Of a DNA stretch of 58,811 nt, positions 3,286 through 33,891 are shown in pieces. The notes beneath the pieces were generated by a model that saw nothing but the letters and a program-made list of their open reading frames with translations, searched no databases and was not told where the DNA came from. How positions within the stretch are numbered: position 1 is the first letter of the stretch; each line of letters begins with the position of its first letter. The position numbers were made by a program, and so were the translations under genes. The DNA is from Lachnospiraceae bacterium (GTDB taxonomy: Bacteria; Bacillota; Clostridia; Lachnospirales; Lachnospiraceae), in assembly GCA_029068555.1 (NCBI GenBank), contig JAIECJ010000126.1:1-58811 (forward strand). The letters are read 5' to 3'.

Positions 3286-3412
3286 AAATTAAAACGCCCC
3301 ATTCAGTAACGCGAATACCGAACAGGGCAGTAAAAGCATTAATCACAGTAATGCGATTACAGTAGGATTATAACATTTTCCTCTGGAAATCGCAAGAACA
3401 AGGAGGAAAAAT

Positions 3413-6131: not shown

Positions 6132-6761
6132 ATGGCAACACCAGTATTGATTATTGGGAAATCAGGTTCTGGCAAAAGCACAAGCCTGCGGAATTGTTCG
6201 GGCAATCCTGACTGGAACCTTATCCGAGTAATAAATAAGCCGTTACCGTTCAAGGGCAAGGTAAATGGATGGAAAACGGACGATTATCAAACGATTATGA
6301 AATGCCTTATTCAGTCAAAAGCAAACAACATTGTTATTGATGATGCAGGGTATCTTCTTACAAATATGTTTATGAGAGGACATTCCAATGCCGGAAAAGG
6401 TAATGATATATTTGTTTTTTACAATAAGGTAGGTGACAGCTTTTGGAACTTAATTACTTTTATTACGGATAGCGTTCCGCAAGAAAAAGTTGTCTACATA
6501 ATGATGCATGAGGATAAGAACGATTTTGGGGACGTGAAAGCAAAAACCATCGGGAAAATGATTGATGACAAAGTTTGCCTTGAGGGCATGTTTACCATCG
6601 TTCTGCGGTGCATAGAGGAATCCGGCAAGCACCTGTTTGTTACGCAGGCATCTGACGGGGCAGTAAGTAAATCCCCCATCGGAATGTTTGAAACGCTGAC
6701 AATCGACAATGACTTGCTTTTGGTGGAAAAGGCAATCAGGGATTATTACAAGGAGGATTAA
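6132..6761 (+). CDS. RecA-like P-loop ATPase (Sak4/AAA_24 type)
   Basis: A 209-residue protein with Walker A GKSGSGKST at residues 8-16 and a Walker B-like strand NIVIDDAGYLL. The size, motif placement and position before a DUF669 ssDNA-binding protein match the Sak4-like single-strand annealing or RecA-like ATPases of siphophages. It probably works with the 6983 protein in phage recombination or replication (inference from context). Confidence 0.75.
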   Translation: MATPVLIIGKSGSGKSTSLRNCSGNPDWNLIRVINKPLPFKGKVNGWKTDDYQTIMKCLIQSKANNIVIDDAGYLLTNMFMRGHSNAGKGNDIFVFYNKVGDSFWNLITFITDSVPQEKVVYIMMHEDKNDFGDVKAKTIGKMIDDKVCLEGMFTIVLRCIEESGKHLFVTQASDGAVSKSPIGMFETLTIDNDLLLVEKAIRDYYKED

Positions 6762-13253: not shown

Positions 13254-13261
13254 CTTAAAAT

Positions 13262-31758: not shown

Positions 31759-31793
31759 AACTCATTATTCCTCTCTCTTTTTGCGCTTAACTT

Positions 31794-31826
31794 TGGTACA
31801 ACTGATTAAAAAAGCTGTGGTATGAT
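31794..31826 (+). promoter_or_regulatory. TGGTACAA-N19-TATGAT promoter, site D
   Basis: TGGTACAA (31794-31801), 19 bp, TATGAT (31821-31826). It should start the RNA that carries the leader, the tRNA-like elements and the radical SAM gene. Confidence 0.65.
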
Positions 31827-31832
31827 GTAATT

Positions 31833-32150
31833 GTCCGGCAGATGGAAACCGGATATTGATCAGATTGCCGCTTCAAGCGGAGGGAACGCACGCCGAGTGA
31901 CGGTTGGGTGCATGATTGTGAGTTAGGGTGCCAGTTGGGTTTTAGCAATCAAAAATTATAAGGAGGATGCGGCCATGAAGAAGCGATGTTGCAGTTATGC
32001 GAATATGAAAAAATTTGAAATCATGTGATCGGCAGCGGCCAGCGGCGAAGTAATCGCCAAACGTGGCGTTTTTCGCAACGATTCGCGGCTTTAAGAACAC
32101 GTTAAACTATGTAAGCCCGCACTGCACAGTCCTTGCAGACAGAAAATGGA
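31833..32150 (+). ncRNA. Structured leader RNA, possible attenuator
   Basis: Just behind promoter D the sequence is rich in hairpins, for example CCGCT/AGCGG (31872-31884) and a GCAC...GGTGC hairpin at 31889-31914. It holds a 17-codon leader frame (31975-32028), then GGCGA/TCGCC (32044-32058), competing with CGCCA-AACG-TGGCG plus five T (32055-32073). The last is terminator-like. The whole may be part of a large non-coding RNA continuing into the tRNA-like elements. Confidence 0.45.
31975..32028 (+). CDS. 17-residue leader peptide
   Basis: ATG 31975 has an excellent ribosome site (AAGGAGG). The peptide MKKRCCSYANMKKFEIM contains adjacent Cys codons and ends 15 bp before the competing hairpins, as in attenuation leaders. 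It might instead be a small bioactive or modified peptide. Confidence 0.4.
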   Translation: MKKRCCSYANMKKFEIM

Positions 32151-32153
32151 CGG

Positions 32154-32267
32154 TGGATAGTAGCTTAATGGTAGAGCCGGAGTAGGAGGCTAACCGAAAC
32201 GAAAAGGAGTGCAAATCTCCGTGGCTATAGTGTGCCTAATATGCAGGTTCGATTCCTGCCTATCCAT
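32154..32267 (+). other. tRNA-like element 1 with enlarged anticodon region
   Basis: Acceptor stem TGGATAG/CTATCCA, D-arm GCTT-AATGGTA-GAGC and a perfect T-arm GCAGG-TTCGATT-CCTGC are all present. Between D- and T-arms there are 65 bases rather than about 25: a stem CGGAG/CTCCG closes a 34-base loop instead of seven, followed by a long variable region with GGC/GCC pairing. No normal anticodon can be assigned. A degenerate tRNA, a tRNA mimic or an interrupted tRNA are the options. Confidence 0.5.
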
Positions 32268-32314
32268 TAACATGTAGCTGACGCATGTATAAATTAAAGA
32301 TTAGAATGGATGGC

Positions 32315-32403
32315 GGCAAAGTCGATAGGTTCGGTTCGATTCCGATGAACTTTGGATAGACTATTTTTTGGAGAGTTAGAGGGTTCGATTCCCTTCTTTG
32401 CCA
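32315..32403 (+). other. tRNA-like element 2 with duplicated T-arm
   Basis: Acceptor GGCAAAG/CTTTGCC plus A and a T-arm GAGGG-TTCGATT-CCCTT form a normal 3' half. The 5' half contains a second T-arm-like hairpin (TCGG-TTCGATT-CCGA, 32331-32345) and an alternative acceptor pairing CAAAGT/ACTTTG. No D-arm or anticodon arm is recognised. Confidence 0.45.
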
Positions 32404-32404
32404 T

Positions 32405-32530
32405 GTTGCGTAGTCGCTCTACGCTAGACAGGAGCAAGCGGTCACTGCCCTGTCGAAAACAAAATAACTCTGATATGCAAAAACATATAAAACTATGTGC
32501 AGAACATATCAGAAACCGCAATATCAGGGA
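32405..32530 (+). other. Hairpins and CTCTGATA...GAAACCGCAA RNA motif, copy 1
   Basis: Hairpins GCGTAG/CTACGC and GACAGG/CCTGTC are followed by CTCTGATATG, which pairs with CATATCAG and leads into GAAACCGCAA, ending at the ribosome site of the radical SAM gene. The same design recurs twice after the peptide gene. Confidence 0.45.
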
Positions 32531-32541
32531 GGGGATTGGAA

Positions 32542-33399
32542 ATGAGAAAATTAAAATGTAATTGCTGTGATGGCATTTATAATTCGTTTGATGTGCATTT
32601 TACAAGTGCTTGTGACAATAAATGTGCTCATTGCGTAGACCAATGTTATGAGGGATTACACATCAATAAGCCGGATATTGAAAAGATTGCCAATGCCATT
32701 ATTTTAAACAGTGATGGATTGGACGATGTTCTTTTCTTAGGCGGTGAGCCTTGCTTGTATTTAGAAGAACTTATACAGTGCATTGAACTATTGAGAGAAA
32801 AAACAGTCCTTAAATTATATGTCACAACTTCTGTGCCTAAGATTTGTTATAACAAGAGAGATAGATTTGAATATCTTATCTCAATATTAGATGGGATTAA
32901 TATATCGGCACAACACTATAAAGAAGATGTGGCAGACGAAATAAGAAAAACCAAGTCACAGTACGACAGGCAGAAGTTTTATAACTCACTCCCACACAAA
33001 GAAAAAATAAGGATAAATCTAAATATCGTTAAACCATATCTGCACACAAAAGAGGATTTGACAGAGTGCTTAAAGCATTATGACAGAATGGGTTTTAATT
33101 CAATAAAATTGTCTGAAATACAGCATGGGAAAGAGCATTTTGTATCTTTTGAGAAAACATTTGGCATTAAATTGGGAAGTCCATATGCTACTGGCTGTCA
33201 GACCTATCTTGATATGGACAGAATTATAAAAGGTTTTAAAACGCCTGTGCTTCTGAAAAGGTCATGCTTTATGTGCGAGGAAACCCTAAGGGCAAGCATT
33301 GATGATGGGATAAAGGTTTTTAGAACTTTATTCAGAAAACCAACAAATAAATATGGGGTTGTCTATGAGAACGGAGAACTCAAGAAAGGATGGGTTTAA
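32542..33399 (+). CDS. Radical SAM enzyme, candidate peptide- or RNA-modifying
   Basis: A 285-residue protein. Cys24, Cys28 and Cys31 form the CxxxCxxC iron-sulfur motif (CDNKCAHC) and GGEP at 67-70 is the SAM-binding motif. Further Cys (CNCC at 6-9, CFMCEETL near the C-terminus) may hold an auxiliary cluster, as in SPASM/Twitch enzymes that modify peptides. It ends two bases before the ATG of a 30-residue peptide gene and follows tRNA-like RNAs. QueE, MiaB or NrdG identity is not supported by motifs. ATG 32542 is chosen for GGGAGGGG. Confidence 0.8.
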   Translation: MRKLKCNCCDGIYNSFDVHFTSACDNKCAHCVDQCYEGLHINKPDIEKIANAIILNSDGLDDVLFLGGEPCLYLEELIQCIELLREKTVLKLYVTTSVPKICYNKRDRFEYLISILDGINISAQHYKEDVADEIRKTKSQYDRQKFYNSLPHKEKIRINLNIVKPYLHTKEDLTECLKHYDRMGFNSIKLSEIQHGKEHFVSFEKTFGIKLGSPYATGCQTYLDMDRIIKGFKTPVLLKRSCFMCEETLRASIDDGIKVFRTLFRKPTNKYGVVYENGELKKGWV

Positions 33400-33401
33400 T
33401 T

Positions 33402-33494
33402 ATGTATACGAAGATTTTAAGAAAAATAGTAAAAATGATGAGAACAATGGCAGGTCATTGTGATGGCGGCGGTTCAACTGGACATTGTTATTAA
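33402..33494 (+). CDS. 30-residue precursor-like peptide
   Basis: ATG 33402 lies two bases after the radical SAM stop, with AAAGGA in that gene's 3' end. Residues 1-16 are basic and amphipathic (MYTKILRKIVKMMRTM), like a leader; residues 17-30 (AGHCDGGGSTGHCY) contain two GHC units around a Gly-rich centre, like a core that could be cross-linked. A ribosomally made, radical-SAM-modified peptide is the best hypothesis. No protease or transporter gene is nearby. Confidence 0.6.
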   Translation: MYTKILRKIVKMMRTMAGHCDGGGSTGHCY

Positions 33495-33650
33495 ATAACT
33501 CTGATAGGGGAGTTTTCCCCTGTCGGAAACCGCAAAATAATAAAAAGGGTACCGTGTCAGACTAAGACCGTTAAAACGGGGCGGTGAGTAAGGTAATAAA
33601 GCTGGGAACGCTCTTACAATTTTATTTTGTCGGAAACCGCAAAAGGGAGG
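33495..33650 (+). other. GAAACCGCAA RNA motif, copies 2 and 3
   Basis: CTCTGATAGGGG-AGTTTT-CCCCTGTCG then GAAACCGCAAAATAA (copy 2, about 33499-33540), and GTCGGAAACCGCAAAA before the next ribosome site (copy 3, 33629-33644). The stem of copy 2 differs in sequence from copy 1 but keeps the pairing, so the structure appears conserved. Confidence 0.5.
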
Positions 33651-33658
33651 ATATGGGA

Positions 33659-33856
33659 ATGGATAATGCAGTTACAACAAATTCAACTGTAACGGGGGTT
33701 GCAAGTATTAGAATACCGAAAGAAATTGCTAAAATTACAATATGCGGAGCGTTTCAACTTACTGTAACAGATATAATGAAATGGATTCCGCCCACAGAAG
33801 AACAGCGGAAAAATCTGAAAGATATACTTTGCATTGATGTGGAGATTTTGGAATAA
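33659..33856 (+). CDS. Hypothetical protein downstream of the peptide gene
   Basis: A 65-residue protein (MDNAVTTNSTVTGVASIRIP start; KEIAKITICGAFQLTVTDIM). ATG 33659 has AGGGAGG at the right distance; the GTG frame from 33584 would translate through the RNA motif. It could belong to the radical SAM unit since no terminator separates them. Confidence 0.5.
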   Translation: MDNAVTTNSTVTGVASIRIPKEIAKITICGAFQLTVTDIMKWIPPTEEQRKNLKDILCIDVEILE

Positions 33857-33858
33857 CT

Positions 33859-33891
33859 TGGTACAACAACCTCACCAAACTGCGGTACAAT
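33859..33891 (+). promoter_or_regulatory. TGGTACAA-N19-TACAAT promoter, site E
   Basis: TGGTACAA (33859-33866), 19 bp, TACAAT (33886-33891), 25 bp before the next ATG. Confidence 0.65.

Follow-up and report, generated by a model that had tools for sequence, protein, structure and literature searches.

Most of the known radical S-adenosylmethionine (SAM) enzymes that modify peptides come from bacterial gene clusters for antibiotics or signalling. In the systems of this kind that make ribosomally synthesized and post-translationally modified peptides (RiPPs), such as those of SkfB, EpeE/YydG and HxsC, a short gene-encoded peptide lies beside a radical SAM enzyme with a CxxxCxxC motif and the pairing is conserved; leader removal and export functions near these genes are common, although not universal. 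The substrate of the Hxs system carries a repeated short motif with His, and in phage-borne bacteriocin clusters a peptide and its modifying enzyme lie together on a prophage. The 58,811-nucleotide stretch of Lachnospiraceae DNA analysed here (contig JAIECJ010000126.1 of assembly GCA_029068555.1; hereafter the window) contains a radical SAM gene that is followed, after two bases, by a gene for a 30-residue peptide, as the first-pass annotation had noticed. The pair resembles the radical SAM RiPP systems in its conserved adjacency, in the conserved N-terminal part and repeat-like C-terminal sites of the peptide, and in the matches of the enzyme to EpeE and SkfB in Foldseek and to HxsC among the profiles. 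Unlike them, it is carried by a phage, the enzyme reaches the cut-off of no curated maturase model, no recurring exporter or protease family was found around the pair, and relatives carry the tail on larger proteins. It differs from the Hxs system in that the profile similarity to HxsC is weak (20.5 bits against a cut-off of 267.9) and that the motif is His-Cys or Gly-Cys rather than His-Xaa-Ser, from the sactipeptide and ranthipeptide SPASM maturases in that the window enzyme has no SPASM domain match (Pfam, E 0.1), and from phage-borne bacteriocin clusters in that no recurring export or immunity gene was found and that the family also occurs in giant phages.

We consider it likely that the two genes form a virus-borne module in which the radical SAM enzyme acts as a maturase of the Cys-containing C-terminal tail of the adjacent peptide or small protein. 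The N-terminal part of the peptide would guide the enzyme, which would cleave SAM to give a radical and whose radical SAM centre would act at repeated HC or GGC/SCG/SSC sites in the tail; in large phages the substrate tail would belong to the adjacent small protein. Relatives of the enzyme at 57–80% identity, obtained from scans of IMG/VR and of bacterial genomes and termed clade 1, are followed by a peptide that starts with M-Y, M-F or M-W (M-L-Y in locus L049) and ends HC...HC, the window peptide carrying AGHCDGGGSTGHCY. An open reading frame (ORF) with at least two HC pairs lies no more than 150 nucleotides downstream of the enzyme gene at 19 of 20 clade-1 loci, compared with 2 of 2761 other short ORFs, the loci being non-redundant (near-identical contigs were dropped) and the background being taken from the same 239,758 bases. 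Across 21 peptides, a set that includes the remnant at L055/L009 and two peptides from L006, 50 of the 54 cysteines are preceded by His and the last Cys lies 1–3 residues from the C-terminus. Each peptide has from 2 to 4 HC pairs, with four HC sites in L043–L048 and L056, and L006 encodes two tandem GHC peptides. When IMG/VR was scanned with a DNA pattern for the leader only, 8 places were found, of which 2 have a GHC core and both of these have the enzyme upstream; at the 6 core-less matches the enzyme was not found in the available DNA, which at L089 extends only about 250 bases upstream. The peptide frame is thus conserved beside homologues of the enzyme, the check that the first-pass annotation had proposed for its suggestion of a modified peptide.

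The peptide core itself is under purifying selection, as indicated by 8 synonymous and 0 nonsynonymous changes between L004 and L007 and by 4.75 synonymous and 2.25 nonsynonymous changes between the window and L002. The identity of the leaders correlates with that of the enzymes (Mantel r 0.712, 0 of 5000 permutations, 18 pairs), which fits the tracking predicted by guided recognition, although shared descent would do likewise.

More distant relatives of the enzyme have larger partners, proteins of 86–166 residues with a Gly/Ser/Cys tail. The enzyme is present in 15 Lak megaphage records at 34–37% identity, and a protein of 153–166 residues ending SGGCGNTY...SGGC is encoded immediately after it in the four records read and on three IMG/VR contigs. 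In the large-phage contigs L051 and L058–L064, with enzymes 36–45% identical to the window enzyme where measured, the partners have 92–121 residues, GGC, SCG or GRC repeats and a C-terminal Cys, the partner in L051 sitting one gene further on rather than strictly adjacent. A third clade was found via L051 and L063, which match phages of 635–735 kb at 27–28% identity over about 60% of the length; the window enzyme gave no match to the records of these phages at E 1e-5 and is 24–26% identical to the clade-3 enzymes of L080 and L083, the two that BLASTP aligns with it over most of the length. In 8 of 10 clade-3 loci (L071 and L077–L083, of which L077–L079 are near-identical) a Cys-tailed protein is encoded directly upstream of the enzyme. 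Over the three clades, a strictly adjacent partner, defined by the tail or by two HC pairs, is present at 38 of 42 loci. After dereplication at 85% enzyme identity it is present at 30 of 33, compared with 37 of 3695 other ORFs under the same definition, and the two-Cys tail definition alone gives 24 of 33 loci compared with 29 of 3695; because the tails were already known when these definitions were drawn up, the counts are a description and not a blind test. L051 adds one more locus, with its partner a gene away, and the remaining misses are L055, L072 and L084 (the last before dereplication). The distant radical SAM proteins of L057 and L065, beside which no partner was seen, stand outside the 42-locus count. 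In the enzyme tree the GHC type forms one branch of 18 rows (support 100/98) and clade 3 another of 8 (100/100), with long branches between the two and an unsure placement of L063, and the partner type follows the tree. Scans with the enzymes of L063 and L045 revealed no additional lineage.

The tail features common to the clades are Cys, richness in Gly and Ser and closeness to the C-terminus, whereas His before Cys is specific to clade 1. For this reason our first guess at the likeliest chemistry, a tentative one, is a thioether at Cys with a variable neighbour, in which the sulphur would be joined to a nearby Gly, Ser or His. It is a serious possibility, if somewhat short of probable, that the family represents a virus-specific class of radical SAM tail maturation, extending over prophages, Lak megaphages and the 635–735 kb phages, by which the phages would put a novel modification at Cys, perhaps a link from His or Gly to Cys, on the C-terminal tails of peptides and small proteins that they themselves encode, with the window peptide as a minimal combination of guide and tail. 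A different role for the same tails would be that of a metal- or Fe–S-binding helper, an electron donor or cluster carrier rather than a substrate, the enzyme then acting elsewhere. Cys-rich tails (His-Cys rich in clade 1) within Gly/Ser-rich C-terminal stretches would suit such a helper, as would the model of one clade-3 partner, a helical domain of three predicted helices with the tail at low confidence, for which no structural match below E 0.001 was obtained. However, the number and spacing of the sites vary widely, with 2 to 4 HC pairs within clade 1, and the single Cys in the tails of L077–L079 is odd for a fixed metal site and fits repeated modification sites, so that we regard the helper role as unlikely.

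The description of the enzyme in the first-pass annotation, a radical SAM protein with CxxxCxxC and extra Cys residues, agrees with its Pfam match (PF04055, E 1.3e-8), its cluster motif CDNKCAHC at residues 24–31, and the conservation outside this motif of Cys102, Cys219 and Cys242 and, nearly so, of Cys9 in a 20-row alignment of clades 1 and 2. Cys219 and Cys242 flank a predicted hairpin (strands 220–223 and 236–239). In Twitch-type radical SAM enzymes a Cys pair around a β-hairpin after the core, together with further Cys ligands, holds one extra cluster, and a second Fe–S cluster may be present in the window enzyme as well. With the AlphaFold2 model (pLDDT, the predicted local distance difference test score, 86.3; pTM, the predicted template modelling score, 0.84), Foldseek ranks viperin 5vsl first (E 8.4e-9, TM-score 0.60), followed by MoaA and by the peptide-acting EpeE and SkfB, whereas the 50 matches listed from a viral structure library are 10–20% identical to the enzyme. 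All 15 NCBIfam matches up to E 1 lie below their curated cut-offs, viperin_w_prok with 37 bits of 180, NrdG2 with 20 of 131.15 and NrdG3 with 18.3 of 151.7 in addition to the HxsC value given above, and no QueE model is among them; QueE matches in L063, L071 and L072 are weak and far under the cut-off. The identities that the first-pass annotation had named as possible refutations, QueE or an NrdG-type activase, therefore find no curated model near its cut-off, and assignment of the enzyme as pVip, NrdG, QueE or HxsC was rejected on the curated cut-offs.

Since viperin provides both the best-scoring profile and the top structural match, and the PADLOC pVip profile scores 41.9 bits (PADLOC supplies no cut-off), the enzyme could instead be a divergent viperin-like protein that makes a modified nucleotide in infection, with the peptide as a regulator or stabiliser. 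Of 22 clade-2 and clade-3 loci, 13 (L051, L058–L062, L064, L071 and L077–L081) have a NadR-like gene of NAD salvage close to the enzyme or its partner, which would agree with such a role, but no NadR-like match lies near any of the 20 clade-1 loci. Moreover, the NCBIfam score is one-fifth of the cut-off, the match stops near residue 198, the TM-score is 0.60, and a nucleotide-making enzyme would leave the conserved Cys-tailed partner unexplained. Neither the conserved Cys9, Cys102, Cys219 and Cys242 nor a peptide partner is known as a viperin feature, and we consider this explanation very unlikely.

The family is rare in bacterial genomes. Among 200 genomes of the family Lachnospiraceae, 40 relatives and 398 genomes of the phylum, strong E-values for the enzyme were restricted to the window's own genome; one bacterial-genome scan gave weak matches in 28 other genomes, the best with E 4.6e-9 and 32% identity over half the length. 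Exact peptide patterns were found at two loci in a collection of 84,980 species, one of which, L011, has an enzyme identical to that of the viral contig L007, and a plasmid search for the enzyme gave no match. Nearly all of the relatives found lie on viral contigs or in phage records, some of them very large, and not in bacterial genomes. Because of this sporadic occurrence in bacterial genomes and the lack of a plasmid match, the enzyme looks like a viral family that occasionally resides in prophages; the first-pass proposal of a new prophage-encoded system was right in substance, and its scope is better described as viral.

A phage-carried bacteriocin, an antimicrobial peptide exported for the benefit of the host, would share in outline the short cationic N-terminus and Cys-containing core of RiPP bacteriocins. 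Against this, no recurring neighbour family fit for an exporter, a protease or immunity was found around clade 1, to which this comparison was confined, and Lak and other giant phages also carry relatives, with larger partner proteins, which makes a bacteriocin highly improbable. Across 21 clade-1 loci together with 13 kb of the window, the enzyme and the peptide are the only families that span more than 4 loci; a methyltransferase-like family, in L031, L047, L048 and the window, is among the widest of the others, and a conserved third gene was accordingly rejected. Since no exporter-, protease- or immunity-like family recurs around clade 1, as judged by clustering only, the product of the proposed maturase most likely acts inside the infected cell or the particle, and not as an exported antibiotic.

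The first-pass annotation had also placed two abnormal tRNA-like elements 5' of the enzyme gene and offered them as alternative substrates. The first (32154–32267) scores 42.5 bits with the Rfam tRNA model (gathering threshold 29) in a permissive search, has 61 bases between the D arm and the T arm and is reported by neither ARAGORN nor the default Rfam search; by Rfam it can be taken as tRNA-derived with an enlarged middle, in which CGGAG/CTCCG possibly encloses a 34-base loop that replaces the anticodon loop. The second (32315–32403) scores 24.8 bits, under gathering, although ARAGORN calls it tRNA-Phe, and is doubtful. Neither the phage collection nor 37 further genomes of the genus contain a match to the 5' region. 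Among 25 relative loci ARAGORN, which also misses the first element of the window, found no tRNA gene, one transfer-messenger RNA (tmRNA) aside, and the permissive Rfam search gave no tRNA match in 15 of these loci. The tmRNA gene lies at 6560–6900 of L008, about 1.7 kb 3' of the enzyme gene on a 183 kb viral contig. The tRNA-like elements are thus neighbours of the enzyme–peptide pair rather than parts of it, and modification of these RNAs by the enzyme, suggested by their position only, is given almost no credence, since the enzyme is co-conserved with the peptide instead. We likewise dismiss the possibility that the enzyme is an activase and the Gly-rich partner the carrier of a stored glycyl radical, for although the tails are Gly-rich and activase profiles score in several members, all of these scores are under the cut-offs (NrdG2, 20 of 131 bits in the window enzyme; PFLA, 44.4 of 231.75 bits in L072) and the tails are marked by Cys.

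Several observations weigh against tail maturation by the enzyme. The modification is proposed from the sequence pairing, and the maturase role is a prediction; the co-divergence of leader and enzyme may come from shared descent alone, and the tail features that the clades share, Cys close to the C-terminus in Gly/Ser-rich sequence, would suit metal binding too. Viperins, whose substrate is a nucleotide, give the top fold match as well as the best profiles. On the contig shared by L055 and L009 the enzyme gene has lost an internal part although the peptide core remains readable, and L055 is the sole clade-1 miss in the count of 20 loci; in this decayed copy the start of the enzyme runs into the readable core. 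No exporter, protease or leader-binding domain was identified, the clade-1 neighbours having been clustered rather than annotated singly. The kinship of clade 3 rests largely on the shared partner because the similarity of the enzymes is so low, with no alignment that covers 70% of the window enzyme at the remaining six clade-3 loci tested. Furthermore, the clade-3 partner lies upstream of the enzyme, no partner was seen in L072 and L084, and the tails of L077–L079 hold a single Cys. Even so, the conservation of the pair, the selection on the core and the parallel Gly/Cys-tailed partners of distant relatives support the modified-peptide alternative of the first-pass annotation well, and we retain tail maturation as the likely function.

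The pair is embedded in phage genes: the window encodes a terminase, a portal and a minor head protein at 15–22 kb, a DNA methyltransferase at 28.2 kb, a head scaffold at 35.2 kb, an anti-repressor at 44.7 kb and a tape measure at 46–49 kb, and the radical SAM gene, the peptide gene and an ORF for a further small protein, also recognised in the first pass, all lie between the methyltransferase and scaffold genes (Table 1). The peptide and this ORF have no model match in NCBIfam (E 1), Pfam or PHROGs (E 0.1). The product of the gene that follows the scaffold gene, which only its position marks as a capsid, has no PHROGs match, no relative at E 1e-40 in 298 other genomes of the family and none in the phage collection. 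A tiny ORF at 31975–32028 (MKKRCCSYANMKKFEIM) is, by eye, preceded by an AAGGAGG site, and a FuFi-1 RNA (123.5 bits) lies at 2015–2180 on the minus strand.

Table 1. Features of the enzyme–peptide locus, in window coordinates.
Feature	Position	Strand	Basis or remark
Promoter-like motif TTGGTACAAC-N13-TGTGGTATGAT, unit start	31793..31826	+	Exact match with 33858–33891; putative function
Hairpin just 5' of the enzyme gene, then AACCGCA and ribosome-binding-like GGGAGG	32469..32513	+	Folding z-score
Radical SAM enzyme, proposed maturase	32542..33399	+	285 residues; ATG start at 32542, stop ends at 33399
Partner peptide, proposed substrate, 30 residues, MYTKILRKIVKMMRTMAGHCDGGGSTGHCY	33402..33494	+	In-frame conservation downstream of the enzyme; purifying selection on the core
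N-terminal part of the peptide, MYTKILRKIVKMMRTMA, basic/hydrophobic, proposed leader	33402..33452	+	Peptides of relatives start similarly
C-terminal core of the peptide, GHCDGGGSTGHCY, proposed modified region	33453..33491	+	His-Cys pattern across 21 peptides
Strong hairpin between the peptide gene and the 67-residue ORF, then AACCGCAAAA	33500..33527	+	Folding z-score
67-residue ORF	33653..33856	+	Outside every family recurring around relatives
Promoter-like motif, second copy, start of the next unit	33858..33891	+	Exact match with 31793–31826

Around the distant relatives, a PnuC transporter gene lies between the NadR-like gene and the enzyme gene in L058, and baseplate-like genes lie 3' of the pair in L051, L058–L061 and L064, the label coming from a model match of 34.4 of 155.8 bits in L059 and from sequence resemblance at the other loci. 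At 3316–4970 of L063, directly upstream of the enzyme gene, there are a second radical SAM gene (RlmN-like, far under the cut-off) and a flavin-reductase-like gene. None of the NadR-like, PnuC, baseplate-like and flavin-reductase-like neighbours is constant.

The first-pass annotation regarded the locus as one transcription unit with a hairpin-rich leader. The boundaries of such a unit fit two exact copies of the motif TTGGTACAAC-N13-TGNGGTANNAT, at 31793 and 33858, whereas sigma-70-type promoter matches occur at chance level (8 found, 7.9 expected). With up to three mismatches the motif pattern, which was derived from its own two exact copies, gives 5 matches in the window compared with 0.07 expected, the weaker copies lying at 13261, 24432 and 45519. 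Because the motif repeats exactly and above chance, a phage-specific promoter at the unit start is plausible; the motif possibly defines a phage-specific promoter class, and a single transcript may run across the unit. The leader does not bear out its description, as 31830–32150 folds no better than shuffled sequences (z +0.84, with 77 of 100 shuffles at least as good), and it is single hairpins elsewhere that stand out: the region 33490–33545 has a folding z of −5.24 (0 of 200 shuffles as good) and the region 32430–32530 a z of −2.23. The sequence TCGGAAACCGCAAAA occurs with 2 mismatches at 32509 and exactly at 33523 and 33630. The pattern TC(G/A)GAAACCGCAA(A/T)A was observed behind hairpins 5' of small genes (32469–32523, 33500–33537 and 33630–33644), the third copy without a strong hairpin, and one further near copy is present in the host genome; together with the hairpin it is perhaps a regulatory RNA element.

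In conclusion, a peptide adjacent to a radical SAM enzyme is already a known kind of arrangement, and the novelty here lies in the viral family and in the tail motif, including its position on larger proteins in giant phages. No title or abstract opening among the search results from the open PubMed Central (PMC) library describes the pairing, and two passages of PMC7794033 do not have phages as their subject; subscription journals and preprints lie outside this scope, and an earlier description is possible. The enzyme lies under all curated family cut-offs, and its pairing with a Cys-tailed partner extends from a prophage up to phages among the largest known, without any hint of export. Should the modification prove real, phages would produce proteins of altered chemistry to be used within the cell or the particle, and one enzyme with a 30-residue peptide would offer a very compact system for finding out the chemistry; if that chemistry is new, the pair would be more than a variant of the known arrangement. 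The recurrence of the pairing in distant and giant phages suggests that these viruses chemically modify their own small proteins.

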